A DNA stretch of 64,000 nucleotides, from positions 355,106 through 419,105 of the forward strand of contig NZ_BPFI01000001.1 of assembly GCF_019972135.1 (NCBI RefSeq), written 5' to 3'. Each line of letters opens with the position of its first letter. Position 1 is the first letter of the stretch. The stretch comes from Sulfurovum sp. TSL1. GTDB taxonomy: Bacteria; Campylobacterota; Campylobacteria; Campylobacterales; Sulfurovaceae. Positions 1 to 46,665 of this stretch are shown here, in pieces. The notes under the pieces are model-generated. The model worked only from the letters and a program-made list of their open reading frames with translations. It searched no databases and was not told where the DNA came from. Both the position numbers and the translations under genes were made by a program.

Positions 1-1189
1 AATACCATACAATAAAGGTCAGAATAGATATAAGCACTACGGTCGGTACAAAATAAAAGGAGACAAGGTCTGCGAGTTTCTGTATAGGTGCTCGTGAACG
101 TTGTGCTTTGGCGACCATATCGATGATCTGTGAGAGCAGGGTATCTGCACCGATCTTTTCTGCCTCCATCACAAGTGTACCGTTGCCATTGATCGTGGCA
201 CCTATTAGTTTCATGCCTGATGCTTTATTGACAGGGATGGGCTCACCCGTTACCATAGACTCATCCACATGGCTCGCTCCTTCCAGTACGATACCGTCCA
301 CAGGTATCTTTTCTCCGGGACGGATACGCAGTTTGTCACCTACTTTAACCTCTTGTGTAGAGACCCTCGTTTCCGATCCGTCAGGATGAATGAGCGTGGC
401 AGTGTTGGGTGCAAGACTGAGAAGCATTTTAATGGCTTCATTGGTTCTTGAACGTGCCCGAAGCTCCAGTACCTGCCCCATCAGCACCAAGGCAGTGATC
501 ACCGCTGCTGCTTCAAAGTAGACATGTACCGTACCCTCCGTTGAGCGCATCTGTGGCGGGAAAATGGTGGGGAAAAGCAAGGCCACTACACTATAGGTCC
601 ATGCGACGGAGACACCGAGCGCGATGAGCGTGAACATATTGGGGTTCCAACTTTTTACAGAGTGCCAAGCCCTGACAAAAAAAGGCCAGCCTCCCCAAAG
701 CACTACAGGGGTCGCCAAAGCAAACTCTATCCAGTATAATGTTTTTGTTGAGAGTTCTTGCGGCAGCAGTGAAGGCATCATATCTGCTACCATCGCCAAG
801 ACAAAAAGAGGAAGCGCCAGGAACGCAGAGAACCAAAAACGCTGTGTCATTGACGTGAGTTCAATGTTCTCTTCTTCTTGGGCAGCCATCACAGGCTCCA
901 GTGACATACCGCATATAGGACAGTTTCCCGGTCCATCCTTGATGATCTCCGGATGCATGGGGCAGGTGTATTGTGTCACACCCGGGCTTATGTCACAGCT
1001 GCCCTCAGGGCAGGTCACTGCATCATCTGTCTCTTTTGGATGAATATAGGTCTCTGGCGAGGCGTCAAACTTGCTTTTGCACTGCTCACTGCAGAAGTAG
1101 TAGGTCTCATGATGATAGGCACTTTGATATTTGGAATCCTCTGAAACATCCATACCACACACCACATCTTTGTGAGTCTCTTTCATCAT
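1..1189 (-). CDS. copA: Copper-translocating P1B-type ATPase, N-terminal part (cut by left edge)
   Basis: Only the N-terminal ~396 residues are in the window; the catalytic DKTGT site lies beyond base 1. Translation of the minus strand from an ATG at 1189 (a second ATG follows at 1186, both behind AAGGA) gives a YHS-type metal site near residues 11-40 (CGMDV and FCSEQC), then a heavy-metal-binding segment with CPMHPEI and CPICGM near residues 75-96. Transmembrane helices follow, and then the actuator domain with [12 protein letters not shown] plus CPMHPEI/CPICGM modules in front of a P1B ATPase are typical of Cu(I)/Ag(I) exporters, so the protein should pump copper from cytoplasm to periplasm using ATP. 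The multicopper oxidase and other envelope metal proteins downstream support that role. Exact metal is inferred, because the TM6 CPC motif is not visible. Confidence 0.9.
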
Positions 1190-4186: not shown

Positions 4187-6271
4187 CTAGAAAAACCACC
4201 GTATCCCCGCACCCCATTTTGTATCATTGTGATAACGTGCACTTATACTGAATTGTTTATTGATACGGTAATCCAAAGTGGCCGACCATTCACTTTTGAG
4301 TTCTGTATCATACTTATATTCTAGTTCCAAGCCTGTGTTGTTGGTCAACATGATCTCTTTAATGAACCATATCCGCGCATCTCCCTTGCTGTCCACCCAT
4401 AACATTGTATCGATTAGACCGGGAAGCAGGTAATTATATCCGATGATCGCACGTGTCTTATCGTTTTCTCTGTCGGCAATGCTTACACCAGCGAACCAGG
4501 AACTGAAGCGGTCTATATACCTGTTATAAACGAAATAGGTATCATACTCTTTGTCATAATCACTCTCCCAGTAAGCGATCAAACTGTTCTTTCCGCTTGC
4601 ACCTGCAAGTAATCCTTCATTCATACTGTCAAGTGCCAGCATATTACCCCAGAAGTACCACTTGTCAAACTCTTCGAGGAACCTGTCGTAACTGGCTTGT
4701 TCTTCTTCATTTTTCGGTGTATCATAGCTGACGACACGTGTCATGCCTGACATCATATGGTAGAGAAAGTGGCAGTGGAAAAGCCAGTCTTTCTCATAAT
4801 CGGCTGCAAACTCTATAACACTCTTTCCCAAAGGCGGTATGTCTACGGTATGTTTCAGCGGTGAACGACTGCCATGTTCGTTGACTACACGAAAAAAATG
4901 CCCATGCAAATGCAGAGGGTGGTGCATCATGGTCTTGTTATCGAAAATAAAACGTACATTCTCACCTTTTTTGATAGATATTTTGTCTTCTTCGCTCAGT
5001 ATTTTGCCGTTAAAGCTCCAGATATACCTGCGCATATCACCATTGAGTGTAAGATGCACTTCTCTCCATGGCCGTTTTGTATCCAGTGTGGTATCTTCCA
5101 GTGCTTCGAGTTTTGCATAAGGGGTAAGCGGTCTTTGATCTGATGACATATCCATTTTATTCATATTCATGGAAGCACCGCACTTCATACCAGCTGTCGA
5201 CTTCCCACCGCTGCATTTCATTGTTTTGCTACCACCGATCGCTTTACCAATGGATGACATCGAAGAGGCGCATTTCATCGCATAATAATTTGGCTTGGGT
5301 ACCCCTTTGACCGATACCTTTTCTCCTTTGCCTATATAGATAGAAGCTTTTCCTGAACCATCCTGTGCTGTGGCTCTCAGTTCAAAAGCACCGTCTTCTG
5401 GTACAGTGAGAATAGCGTCATACGTCTCTGCGACAGAGATAAGAAGTTTATCTTGATCAAAAGGTTTAACATCTACACCATCAGCAGAGATAATGCGCAA
5501 CGGTCCATCTGCATATTGCATATAAAAATAGGTGGAGGCAGAACCATTGATGATCCGTAACCGTATCTTCTCTCCGGCTTTTGCCTTGTAAGTACTGCTC
5601 TGTTTCCCATTGATAAGGAAAGCATCGTAGTAGACATCAGATATATCCATACCGGGCATTTGGTTTTTCCATTGGGTAAGCATATTACCCACAGCATCAT
5701 TTTGAATGAATCCCCAGAGTGATTGTACAGAACCTTTTTTGATGGCATAGTATTCACTGCCGCGTTTGAGTGTTCTCATGACCTCTTCGGGATCCTCATC
5801 GGTCCAGTCCGAGAGAAGGAGAACCAGTTCTTTATCTACTTTATACCGTTTCTTTTTCGGTTGGATCATGATAGAGCCATAGATTCCTCTTTGTTCATGA
5901 AGCCCTGTATGGGAATGATACCAGTATGTTCCGGACTGTATCAGAGGAAAACGGAATGTAAGCGAGCCGTGTGCTTTTATAGGGGGAGTTGTAAGGTAGG
6001 GAACACCATCCTGATCATTACGTCCAGGAAACAGAATACCATGCCAATGGATGGAAGTGTCAACATCCATCTTGTTTGTCACTTTAATGTTAACCCAGTC
6101 TCCTTCTTCCGCTTTAATGGTTGGACCGGGAATGCCTCCATTGATGGTCATGGCTTCTACATCTTTTCCCGTAAAGTTAACAGTTTTATACTCTATTACA
6201 AGATCGTAGTATACATCTTTGGCTGAAAGTAGAGTACTCAGTAGAGTGAATAATAGCAGTAATTGCTTCAT
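4187..6271 (-). CDS. Periplasmic multicopper oxidase (CopA/CueO type) with CopB-like C-terminal extension
   Basis: A 694-residue protein with a signal peptide (MKQLLLLFTLLSTLLSA). All four copper motifs are visible: HWHG at 75-78, WYHSH at 117-121, HPLHLHGHFF near 450 and HCHFLYHMM at 499-507. A Met/Cys-rich insert (repeated MKC and MNMNKMDM units, about 335-380) resembles methionine-rich Cu(I)-binding inserts of CueO/CopA oxidases. After the last copper motif, about 150 residues (545-694) continue as alternating aromatic strands ending in GIRWFF. This resembles part of the outer-membrane protein CopB. Standard oxidases of this class end soon after the last motif, so this looks like a CopA-CopB fusion. 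Likely role: oxidation of Cu(I) in the periplasm. The start has no close strong Shine-Dalgarno. Confidence 0.88.
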   Translation of the reverse strand: MKQLLLLFTLLSTLLSAKDVYYDLVIEYKTVNFTGKDVEAMTINGGIPGPTIKAEEGDWVNIKVTNKMDVDTSIHWHGILFPGRNDQDGVPYLTTPPIKAHGSLTFRFPLIQSGTYWYHSHTGLHEQRGIYGSIMIQPKKKRYKVDKELVLLLSDWTDEDPEEVMRTLKRGSEYYAIKKGSVQSLWGFIQNDAVGNMLTQWKNQMPGMDISDVYYDAFLINGKQSSTYKAKAGEKIRLRIINGSASTYFYMQYADGPLRIISADGVDVKPFDQDKLLISVAETYDAILTVPEDGAFELRATAQDGSGKASIYIGKGEKVSVKGVPKPNYYAMKCASSMSSIGKAIGGSKTMKCSGGKSTAGMKCGASMNMNKMDMSSDQRPLTPYAKLEALEDTTLDTKRPWREVHLTLNGDMRRYIWSFNGKILSEEDKISIKKGENVRFIFDNKTMMHHPLHLHGHFFRVVNEHGSRSPLKHTVDIPPLGKSVIEFAADYEKDWLFHCHFLYHMMSGMTRVVSYDTPKNEEEQASYDRFLEEFDKWYFWGNMLALDSMNEGLLAGASGKNSLIAYWESDYDKEYDTYFVYNRYIDRFSSWFAGVSIADRENDKTRAIIGYNYLLPGLIDTMLWVDSKGDARIWFIKEIMLTNNTGLELEYKYDTELKSEWSATLDYRINKQFSISARYHNDTKWGAGIRWFF

Positions 6272-6398: not shown

Positions 6399-6683
6399 TT
6401 ACTTTGTATCTTTTGTCTTTTTAGAAGCTAAAATAAAAGCCAAAATGTCTCTTGCCTCTTGTCCTGTAAGTCCGGCACGAACACGCATATGCTTCATAGA
6501 AATCGGCCACTTACTTTTACTAAGACTTGATGGGGTACGTAAATTGTGACAACGCATACAAGTATCAGCCCAAAGTTGTGCACCATTTTCAATATTACTG
6601 GTATTTTCATTTGCTACAGAAGCTGTGCCCATTGCAGCAAGTAATAGCATCGTTATTGTTGTTATTTTTAATATATTTTTCAT
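6399..6683 (-). CDS. Small periplasmic mono-heme c-type cytochrome
   Basis: A 94-residue protein with an N-terminal signal (hydrophobic TTITMLLLAAMG, cleavage near ASVANE) and a single heme-binding CMRCH around residues 42-46. A later methionine (for example in ISMKHMR) could be the distal ligand. Mature size is about 70 residues, typical for class I soluble electron carriers. The gene starts only nine bases after the porin gene ends, so the two are probably co-transcribed. A place as electron acceptor for the neighbouring multicopper oxidase is inference. Confidence 0.85.
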   Translation of the reverse strand: MKNILKITTITMLLLAAMGTASVANENTSNIENGAQLWADTCMRCHNLRTPSSLSKSKWPISMKHMRVRAGLTGQEARDILAFILASKKTKDTK

Positions 6684-6692
6684 CTTGTTCTC

Positions 6693-7835
6693 CTAAAAAC
6701 CAATTGCAAACTGTACAAGGAAACGATCGTTATTTGCATGTGAATCAATTGCTGTATCATCTTCATCTTCATTGAACTCATATGCAACTTTGGCAAGAAG
6801 AGTGTTCGTAAAAAGATAGTTCAATCCAAATGCCCACTGGTTGCGATCGGCCTCAGGATTATGATACTCACTGTAACGAACGACGGGTTCAAGTTTCACC
6901 GATGAAAATTGATAGGCTGCCTGGGCATACCATGCCTTCCATGTGCCACCCTCTAATGTACTCAAAGCATTCTCACCAATTTTTTGTTGTATATACTCAG
7001 CTTTTAAATTGAGCGCATCAATGTTATACATTAGATCTGCCCCAAATACATCGTAATCACGGGCAACAGTTTCTTCTGAGGGGAGTTCCTCTTCAACTTC
7101 TCCAGTTGCCAAAGAAACGCCAATTTCCATATTTCCCAAAGGATTAACAGCATAACGTCCACCAATGGTCATACTTGCATCACTCACGTCTGTTTTAGCC
7201 TCTGTATCAATGATCACATCACCATCATCTGCTACACCAAAGGTCGGTGCATTTGCCACAAAGATAGCATAATTACTTCGCATCTCTCCTATCTTTGGCA
7301 AACCACCCCGAAGTGCTATACCGATATTAGAAGAGAGTGCTGCCCCGTCATGTCCAAAGCCGACCGGTGCACTTGGAAGTTTATTGATCCAGGAAGGATG
7401 TTGGTTTTGTACAAACTGTCCTATAGGTGATAGGAACTTACCTACTTGTAACCCCATATAATCATTGATAAAGAATGTACCTGCAGCATATTCAAGGTTC
7501 GTTTCGGTTTCACCTTCATCATTGATCTCAAGCTCTACTTCAGCTTCGAACAAAAAGATATCACCATATGTGTAGAGTAATAAAGGAGAAAACTTAACCT
7601 CAGAGAAGGAACCATCGTCATCTTCTTCATTTACAAAGTCAAAAGATGCATAGCCTGCCAATTGGAATGCAGACATTGAATGATCTTCAAAGCTATTTTG
7701 CATTTGTTTATCTCTTAGTTGCAAGGCGTCTACATCCTCACGCAGCTGTTTTATATCAACATCTTGTGTTTCTGCCACTAATAGTGTTGATGTCATCATC
7801 GTACTTAGTACAACGCCAATCATTAACTTTTTCAT
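6693..7835 (-). CDS. Outer-membrane porin, OprO/P or FmdC-like
   Basis: A 380-residue protein with a signal peptide ending near TLLVAE. A short coiled-coil (DVDIKQLREDVDALQLRDKQ) follows, then an aromatic-rich beta pattern from residue ~60 to the C-terminal phenylalanine (QFAIGF), a classic outer-membrane end. The strong Asp/Glu content and loops such as EEDDDGSFSE suggest a charged channel. It resembles short trimeric phosphate or amide porins of Campylobacterota; the substrate cannot be told from sequence. It is followed closely by the mono-heme cytochrome, and the amino-acid permease gene lies upstream on the same strand. Confidence 0.82.
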   Translation of the reverse strand: MKKLMIGVVLSTMMTSTLLVAETQDVDIKQLREDVDALQLRDKQMQNSFEDHSMSAFQLAGYASFDFVNEEDDDGSFSEVKFSPLLLYTYGDIFLFEAEVELEINDEGETETNLEYAAGTFFINDYMGLQVGKFLSPIGQFVQNQHPSWINKLPSAPVGFGHDGAALSSNIGIALRGGLPKIGEMRSNYAIFVANAPTFGVADDGDVIIDTEAKTDVSDASMTIGGRYAVNPLGNMEIGVSLATGEVEEELPSEETVARDYDVFGADLMYNIDALNLKAEYIQQKIGENALSTLEGGTWKAWYAQAAYQFSSVKLEPVVRYSEYHNPEADRNQWAFGLNYLFTNTLLAKVAYEFNEDEDDTAIDSHANNDRFLVQFAIGF

Positions 7836-7915: not shown

Positions 7916-9241
7916 TTAAAGTTCTTCAGTTCTATACTTTTTTAAAAATATACTTTCGCCTATAAGTATGAACAAGATCCCTATCAATGCAGCATAAATT
8001 ATCATGATGTCCGTGGATGCTTTTATCATAAGAAATGCACCAAGTACTATGACATCAAATATGATCGCAGATATCAGAATAAATGCATTAGCATGGATCT
8101 CTTTACGTAAATACCTGAAAACACCCCAGTGAACAGCAATATCCATAATGATATAAAAAATAGCCCCCAGTGATGCGATCCGACTCAAGTCAAAAAATAT
8201 CGTCAGACATATAGCAATGACAACAGTATAGACCAATGTATGCTTTTGGATGTCCCCAGGCATACCAAAATGACTATGTGGTACAAGCTTCATTTCAGTC
8301 AACATAGCAAGCATACGCGATACTGCATACACACTTGCGATCAAACCTGATATAGTAGCTACAATCGCTATGGCTACAGTAAACCATAAACCATAATTAC
8401 CAAATGCAGGTCGTGCTGCCTGAGCCAGTGCATAATCTTTTGCATGGATGATTTCCGGCAACGTTAGATTTGCTGCCACAGCCATAGCGACTAAAAAATA
8501 GATCACTACGCATATCACAATAGAAATGATAATGGCACGTCCGACATTCTTATGTGGGTTTACAATTTCTGAACCGCTATTGGTAATCGTGGTAAACCCC
8601 TTATATGCCAGAATAGCCAGGGCCATTGATGCTATGAACCCAGTAAGAGATGTATCTGTCATATTTACAGAAGTGTTTTCAAATGAAAAACCGGCAACCC
8701 ATAAACCACCGAGTGAAAATACAATGATACCGCCAATTTTTATAAGAGCCATCAGTAAGGAAAAGAGTCCGATTATTCGATTTCCGGAAATGTTAAGCAG
8801 GAAGGCAAAAATCAATAGACCAACACCTAATGCCGGAACTATCCAGCTATTAGGATCAATATCAAATAACTGAGTGGTGTAGGTACCAAAAGTACGTGCG
8901 ACAAGGCTTTCGTTGATGACCATGGAAAAGTACATCAAAAGTGCACCTACAGCTGTCTTAATACCTTTTCCGTAGGCTTTTTCCAAGAACATCGCAATAC
9001 CACCGGCAGACGGATAGGCATTGGACATTTTTACATAGGAATAAGCACTGAATGCAGTGACTACAGCAGCCACAAGAAATACAAGAGGAAACAGTGAACC
9101 TGCAAGCTCGGCAATTTGCCCAGTAAGGGCCAAAATACCTGCACCTATCATCACGCCTGTACCCATTGATACAGCCCCGACAAGTGTCATACTGCTTTCT
9201 TTATATTTGGTAGATCTATCGTGTTTTGAATGATCTTTCAT
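7916..9241 (-). CDS. APC-superfamily amino-acid permease
   Basis: A 441-residue integral membrane protein with about 12 hydrophobic helices. The N-terminal signature GTGVMIGAGILALTG (about 28-42) is the unwound TM1 segment of APC transporters, and SAYSYVKMSNAYPSAGG follows in TM2. The N-terminal tail is charged and cytosolic (MKDHSKHDRSTKYKES). The family exchanges or imports amino acids and related amines across the inner membrane. Substrate is unknown. The Met-rich protein gene lies 25 bases upstream on the same strand, so they may share a transcript. Confidence 0.88.
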   Translation of the reverse strand: MKDHSKHDRSTKYKESSMTLVGAVSMGTGVMIGAGILALTGQIAELAGSLFPLVFLVAAVVTAFSAYSYVKMSNAYPSAGGIAMFLEKAYGKGIKTAVGALLMYFSMVINESLVARTFGTYTTQLFDIDPNSWIVPALGVGLLIFAFLLNISGNRIIGLFSLLMALIKIGGIIVFSLGGLWVAGFSFENTSVNMTDTSLTGFIASMALAILAYKGFTTITNSGSEIVNPHKNVGRAIIISIVICVVIYFLVAMAVAANLTLPEIIHAKDYALAQAARPAFGNYGLWFTVAIAIVATISGLIASVYAVSRMLAMLTEMKLVPHSHFGMPGDIQKHTLVYTVVIAICLTIFFDLSRIASLGAIFYIIMDIAVHWGVFRYLRKEIHANAFILISAIIFDVIVLGAFLMIKASTDIMIIYAALIGILFILIGESIFLKKYRTEEL

Positions 9242-9266: not shown

Positions 9267-9725
9267 TTATTTGTTCATCATACCTTGATTGCCCATCATG
9301 CCTTGACCACCACATTTCATGCCTTGGCCCTGTTTCATACCTTTACCTTGCTTCATATCCTGGTTGTCCATGCCTTTTTTTCCCATCATACAACGATTGT
9401 TCATCATGCTCTGGCAACAACAGCAGCAACAACAGCAATGCATACCTTGGCCACCCATCATTCCCTGGTTGCCCATGCCCATCATGCCTTGACCACCCAT
9501 CATGCCCTGACCACCCATCATGCCCTTACCTTGCATACCGTATTTTTGACGCTCTTCCTGTGTCATGGATTGCATACGTTTTTGCATCTCTTTTCTAAAG
9601 TCATCTCTCTGTTCCATAGGTACACTTCCACGCATATGCATCATATCTTCAGTACTCATATGTGTAAAATCTATCGCATAAAGTGAAGCGATCATAGCTG
9701 TGATTATGATTAAATATTTCATCAT
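9267..9725 (-). CDS. Secreted Met-rich protein with a run of eight cysteines (DUF1104-like N-terminus)
   Basis: A 152-residue protein with a short signal peptide (MMKYLIIITAMIASLYA). Residues ~19-62 resemble the DUF1104 family of Campylobacterota (DFTHMSTEDMMHMRG, then RKEMQKRMQSMTQEERQKY). From residue 63 the protein is low-complexity GMMGGQ and GMKQGQ units: 34 of 152 residues are methionine. Residues 97-104 are eight consecutive cysteines, encoded by two exact copies of a 12-base unit (bases 9414-9425 and 9426-9437 on the plus strand). Further cysteines are at 112 and 138. Met and Cys clusters are typical Cu(I)/Ag(I) ligands, so an envelope metal buffer is inferred. AAGGA lies 6-9 bases upstream of the two possible ATG codons. 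Confidence 0.8.
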   Translation of the reverse strand: MMKYLIIITAMIASLYAIDFTHMSTEDMMHMRGSVPMEQRDDFRKEMQKRMQSMTQEERQKYGMQGKGMMGGQGMMGGQGMMGMGNQGMMGGQGMHCCCCCCCCQSMMNNRCMMGKKGMDNQDMKQGKGMKQGQGMKCGGQGMMGNQGMMNK

Positions 9726-46095: not shown

Positions 46096-46665
46096 ATGAA
46101 AAAAATGATGATGACGGGGTTGCTGTGTATCAGTGCATGCATGCCTTTACAAGTGTCCGCACAGTCTTTGCTGGAAAGAGTGGTGGTAGATGTGATCTTG
46201 GGTGTGTATGATAAACCGCAGTACCGTGATAACAGACCTTACTACTTTTACAATAACAGATACTATTATGGCGGTGACTGGAGAAACGGATACTACTACT
46301 ATGAGGGTAGAAGACTAAGCGGTGGCCACTATTATGAAAGAGGATATTACGACCACTATAATAGAGCGTATGATAGACCACACTACCGTGATGAGAGACC
46401 GTATTACTTTTACAATAACAGATACTACTATGGTGGTGACTGGAGGAACGGATACTACTACTATAAGGGTGAAAGACTCAGAGGCGGCCACTACTATGAA
46501 AGAGGGTACCAAGAGCACTATAGAAAACAAAAGCATCCAAACCATAAGAACGGCCACTACAAACATAACAAGCACTATCGAGATAATGACGGTCATAGAT
46601 ATAGAGAGTATGACGATCATAAAAAATATAAAAAGAACGGAAAGCCAAAGAAACATGAGAGATAG
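46096..46665 (+). CDS. Secreted Tyr/Arg/His-rich tandem-repeat protein
   Basis: A 189-residue protein with a signal peptide (ending near VSAQS) and a GAGGAGG site. Residues 43-91 and 97-143 are two copies of a 54-residue unit (offset 162 bases): YRDxRPYYFYNNRYYYGG, then DWRNGYYYY, then GGHYYERGY. The unit is about one-third tyrosine. The tail (from ~145) is Lys/His/Asn-rich and ends KNGKPKKHER. The two copies are close in DNA as well as in protein. No family recognised; similar YXXRG and WRNG-rich proteins exist among exported stress proteins. A cell-surface or polymer-binding role is a guess. A hairpin covers its stop codon. Confidence 0.75.
   Translation: MKKMMMTGLLCISACMPLQVSAQSLLERVVVDVILGVYDKPQYRDNRPYYFYNNRYYYGGDWRNGYYYYEGRRLSGGHYYERGYYDHYNRAYDRPHYRDERPYYFYNNRYYYGGDWRNGYYYYKGERLRGGHYYERGYQEHYRKQKHPNHKNGHYKHNKHYRDNDGHRYREYDDHKKYKKNGKPKKHER

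Follow-up and report, generated by a model that had tools for sequence, protein, structure and literature searches.

What role would a run of eight consecutive cysteines play in a probably exported bacterial protein encoded among copper genes? The question is raised by one gene in a 64,000-nucleotide stretch of DNA from Sulfurovum sp. TSL1 (the window), which reads on the minus strand, a detail missing from an earlier note on this DNA. The answer we favor, as moderately probable, is a periplasmic sponge for Cu(I) and Ag(I) that works like SilE, with oligocysteine as its novelty. The gene and its parts are as follows.

9267..9725, minus strand: gene for a 152-residue, probably exported DUF1104-Met/Cys-rich protein (ORF and Pfam match; dN/dS ∼0.09 against the orthologue of Sulfurovum sp. 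AR).
9675..9725, minus strand: predicted signal peptide, residues 1–17 (sequence reading and relatives).
9531..9671, minus strand: DUF1104 segment, residues 19–65, predicted short helices (Pfam; AlphaFold; solved relative HP0721, 2xrh).
9270..9530, minus strand: Met-rich tail, residues 66–152, with GQGMM-type repeats, predicted disordered (AlphaFold pLDDT; tandem repeats).
9414..9437, minus strand: Cys8 tract, residues 97–104, two identical 12-base units, preceded by His96 (sequence; TRF).

The Cys8 protein contains 34 Met, 10 Cys, and 3 His in its 152 residues, with a single Pro near residue 36, and between 37 and 54 residues are left between the tract and the C terminus. The methionine richness described earlier was borne out, as were the signal-peptide-like start and the DUF1104-like segment. 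Judged from that start, the protein is probably exported, and alignment with relatives ending AWA/A suggests cleavage after A17. The Pfam family PF06518 (DUF1104) was matched at residues 19 to 65 above its cut-off (E 7.3e-8; 33.1 bits, gathering cut-off 25), with the match spanning only profile positions 1 to 47 of 92; since the protein shares the N-terminal half of the family, it is named DUF1104-containing rather than a full-length member. AlphaFold placed helices within residues 25 to 64 and returned pLDDT <50 for residues 68 to 149. With a mean pLDDT of 56.7, only the small domain of the model is usable, and the low model confidence elsewhere points to a disordered tail. The closest solved relative, HP0721 of H. 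pylori (PDB 2xrh), was detected at E 4e-4 by sequence and weakly by fold (E 4.9). HP0721 was among proteins retained on a nickel column (PMC2225478), which by analogy may lend weak support to metal binding. DUF1104 relatives in the genus mostly carry EF-hands or short tails, in contrast to the Met/Cys tail of the window protein, a pattern that suggests one N-terminal part with exchangeable, putatively metal-binding tails. Many DUF1104 proteins of the genus, including that at L067 5507–6157 and its relatives, have EF-hand repeats behind the same N terminus.

The HCys8 motif (residues 96–104) is encoded, past its histidine, by TGC TGT TGT TGC twice over, and TRF returned 9414–9437 as a repeat of period 12, with 2.0 copies and 100% identity, in agreement with the earlier placement of Cys8 at residues 97 to 104 on two identical 12-base units. 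Shuffling the protein's own residues 200,000 times never yielded a Cys run of at least 6. The orthologue in genome G524 also has Cys8, encoded as TGC TGT TGC TGC / TGC TGT TGT TGC, one silent base apart from the window tract. With no exact 12-base repeat in that orthologue, the origin of the tract cannot be read from the repeat. By our own arithmetic, two identical halves among eight two-fold degenerate Cys codons are expected about 1 time in 16 if both codons are equally used. An old duplication behind the tract is possible, but the earlier claim that a 12-base duplication made it is not supported. In the orthologue of Sulfurovum sp. AR (L005), the tract is HCys6-Phe-Cys, and the same protein occurs in G027; because the G524 protein has HCys8 and is otherwise identical to that of AR, the AR tract differs by one codon, TTT for TGT. 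Copy number had also been expected to vary between strains. Lengths of 6, 7, and 8 do occur among paralogous tails, but the true orthologues are constant, all with eight codons at the site.

Comparison of the window gene with its AR orthologue, a diverged pair (dS ∼0.8), gave dN/dS of 0.094 for the whole gene and 0.075 for the tail, much like the neighboring oxidase (0.082). The gene and its tail are under strong purifying selection, and a low dN/dS by itself does not prove selection on each Cys. Together with the tracts of the G524 and AR orthologues, the low dN/dS counts against a neutral tail and against an assembly error, the artifact that the earlier note had named as a refutation.

A second gene type combines an unrelated N terminus, with no match in Pfam, and the same kind of tail, in which the tract is HCys6 or HCys7. 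The second gene of this genome (L068) has 6 Cys and an identical copy in G003, whose other copy has 7. Tails of the second type and of the window gene align at the DNA level with the tract in register; as both are rich in repeats, part of this similarity could be convergent. One tail is carried on two N termini, and both gene types lie ∼25 nt ahead of the same permease (93–94% identical). Among the eight intact permease loci found in 100 genomes searched, a Met-rich gene of such kind was directly upstream in five and contained the tract in four.

Coding Met-rich tract genes occur in only four of 175 genomes of the family, all of one genus (G000, G003, G027, and G524), and a phylum-wide sample of 397 genomes held no tract gene besides the window's own, with search patterns that required MHCys5 or longer and would miss shorter or differently preceded runs outside the 100 relatives. 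Matches were kept only if they lay in a Met-rich ORF with a signal-peptide-like start. Nearly all oligocysteine pattern matches in the 100 relatives sat in frames that are short or improbable as genes and that probably represent the opposite strand of genes rich in Gln or Ala; also set aside were a match in G025 (a short frame overlapping a long ORF) and two on viral contigs (HCys5 in a frame unlike a gene). No tract was found in a search of plasmids. The tract-bearing tail is real, conserved, and restricted to one lineage, a variant of a Met-rich tail that is probably exported and metal-binding. A distant second-type relative at L114 1513–1839 (G015) is Met-rich, probably exported, has a Cys pair, and adjoins a small metal-chaperone-like gene.

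The following neighbors of the Cys8 gene bear on its function.

7916..9241, minus strand: APC-type amino acid permease (Pfam), beginning 25 nt after the Cys8 gene; four tract-bearing copies are followed by this partner.
6693..7835, minus strand: porin-like outer-membrane protein (Pfam).
6399..6683, minus strand: small c-type cytochrome (Pfam).
4187..6271, minus strand: CopA-like multicopper oxidase with a Met/Cys-rich insert (Pfam Cu-oxidase domains).
1..1186, minus strand: P1B-type ATPase, partial, cut by the window edge (∼91% identical to the ATPase of the AR locus; longer stretch in L103).

The Cys8 gene, permease, porin, cytochrome c, and oxidase thus follow one another on the same strand, with the P1B ATPase further on, past other genes. 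The oxidase matched TIGR01480 at E 2e-120, yet below the cut-off of that model. Beyond its last copper-oxidase domain it continues for ∼150 additional residues; a resemblance of its C terminus to that of CopB was not supported. In AR/G027 and G524, ∼0.4 kb separates the orthologues from the same oxidase (88% identical) downstream, and the P1B ATPase is within a few kb. The AR locus consists of the Cys8 gene, a small SHOCT-like gene, and the oxidase, with the ATPase nearby, an arrangement repeated gene for gene in G524. The cluster core (Cys8 gene, multicopper oxidase, and P1B ATPase) persists in relatives, in support of the copper-gene neighborhood pointed out earlier. The link to copper is strengthened by the DUF1104 copies: a copper oxidase adjoins each of the six Met-tailed copies examined and none of ∼19 others, many of which have EF-hands. 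Given related loci and some short contigs, this contrast is suggestive rather than a clean test. Among the copies at oxidases are Cys-free, Met-tailed paralogues (at L066, with a copy in L081, and at L083). The second-type loci L064 and L068 share the permease, porin, and cytochrome c and adjoin a YHS-domain gene, with no multicopper oxidase within the stretch read. In these two tract-bearing clusters, the YHS domain is fused to an SLOG/LDcluster4 domain, beside the permease (L064 7805–8542; L068 6757–7494). In a second copper cluster of this genome (L066 4926–6805), only fragments of the permease are left beside the Met-tailed DUF1104 gene. DUF1104 copies share a palindrome-like stretch ahead of the start codon, which was tested as an operator and had one genome match within three mismatches, before the paralogue; a single match shows no regulon, and no shared copper operator was found. 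Elsewhere, positions 46096–46665 of the window encode a probably exported protein that is rich in Tyr and His and contains two nearly identical repeats.

SilE and PcoE are the best-studied exported silver/copper sponges and use Met and His as ligands. Bacterial metallothioneins and Csp copper storage proteins offer many thiolates for Cu(I), with spaced Cys in a folded protein. The window protein resembles the latter in its many thiolates and differs in that its Cys are consecutive rather than spaced; no metallothionein or Csp family was matched in Pfam or NCBIfam. SilE has been shown by experiment to be disordered, has Met and His motifs with ten His, folds on six Ag(I), and is proposed to be a periplasmic molecular sponge (PMC5008109). 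SilE and PcoE are small, exported, disordered, Met-rich, and encoded in metal resistance operons; the window protein is predicted to be of the same kind and is encoded in a copper cluster, its Met-rich chain (34 of 152) being disordered to judge from model confidence over residues 68 to 149. In contrast to the Met and His motifs of SilE, it has 3 His, 10 Cys, and the oligocysteine run. As no SilE/PcoE model in Pfam or NCBIfam was matched, the Cys8 protein is not filed as a member. A literature search on oligocysteine bacterial proteins and on copper resistance in Sulfurovum found nothing on point.

Since the gene lies inside a copper-handling cluster, its tail most likely sequesters toxic ions of copper-like metals on the outer side of the inner membrane. 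A Sec-exported periplasmic protein would combine the small helical DUF1104 domain with a disordered, metal-sponging tail. Cu(I) or Ag(I) would be held weakly by the numerous Met residues, while the HCys8 run would provide a high-affinity thiolate site and could hold a small metal-thiolate cluster. The protein would thereby lower free periplasmic metal, in a role complementary to two other products of the cluster, the multicopper oxidase and the P1B ATPase. Against a sponge, periplasmic thiols may be oxidized to disulfides. Met-tailed paralogues at copper loci do without any Cys, and the Cys run is therefore dispensable for whatever the basic role is. More tentatively, a Met/oligocysteine tail found on two unrelated N termini ahead of one copper-cluster permease might, though we consider this doubtful, hold Cu(I) or Ag(I) in a thiolate cluster built from consecutive periplasmic Cys, a metallothionein-like site within a SilE-like sponge.

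Other explanations fit parts of these data. The Met tail may function while the Cys run, produced by repeat slippage, has no role; the abundance of repeats in the tail, the Cys-free paralogues, and the Cys-to-Phe change in one orthologue would all be accommodated. We regard such a by-product as unlikely, because eight Cys codons are kept in the diverged pair of window and AR, only one silent change separates the tract of the window from that of G524, and the tract is carried on two N termini. Sulfurovum is a vent bacterium, its genus is one of sulfur oxidizers, and cysteine persulfides are common sulfur carriers. As the named relative is a Sulfurovum, the Cys run might serve a sulfur-oxidizing bacterium by binding periplasmic sulfane sulfur or polysulfide. 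With copper genes as neighbors and no obvious use for a Met-rich tail in carrying sulfur, we consider such binding very unlikely.

Position ahead of the permease raises two regulatory alternatives. CutF, which regulates CutO and combines a Sec signal with a metal motif that lies 45 residues ahead of a C-terminal motif, and CruR, which regulates a TonB-dependent transporter, are, with CopL, small Cys-containing proteins encoded ahead of metal-handling or transporter genes (PMC9973294). Likewise, the Cys/Met tail could sense copper during translation and export, with translation of the gene controlling those downstream: in four tract-bearing copies, the gene directly precedes the permease (by ∼25 nt), and the 37 to 54 residues that follow the tract are comparable to the spacing in CutF. 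This reading is improbable nonetheless, as the protein lacks a proline-rich C-terminal stalling motif (one Pro in the whole protein), no stem-loop hides the permease start (folding no better than shuffles, z +0.54), and the whole protein is under strong purifying selection. Alternatively, ribosomes pausing at the eight Cys codons when charged tRNA-Cys is scarce could turn on the amino acid permease, as the placement of a Cys codon run ahead of such a gene might suggest. Such attenuation is hardly credible, given that no terminator-like hairpin lies between tract and permease, that the AR orthologue has no adjoining permease, and that the permease of G055 sits behind a Cys-free version of the gene.

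The SilE-like sponge accordingly remains the favored reading, and relative to the SilE model, the oligocysteine run is the new element. For an exported bacterial protein, a conserved eight-Cys run would be an unusual way to bind metal, and the tract offers a short peptide in which the binding of metal to consecutive thiolates could be measured. For a DUF1104-containing protein, a periplasmic metal sponge would be the first testable role offered.
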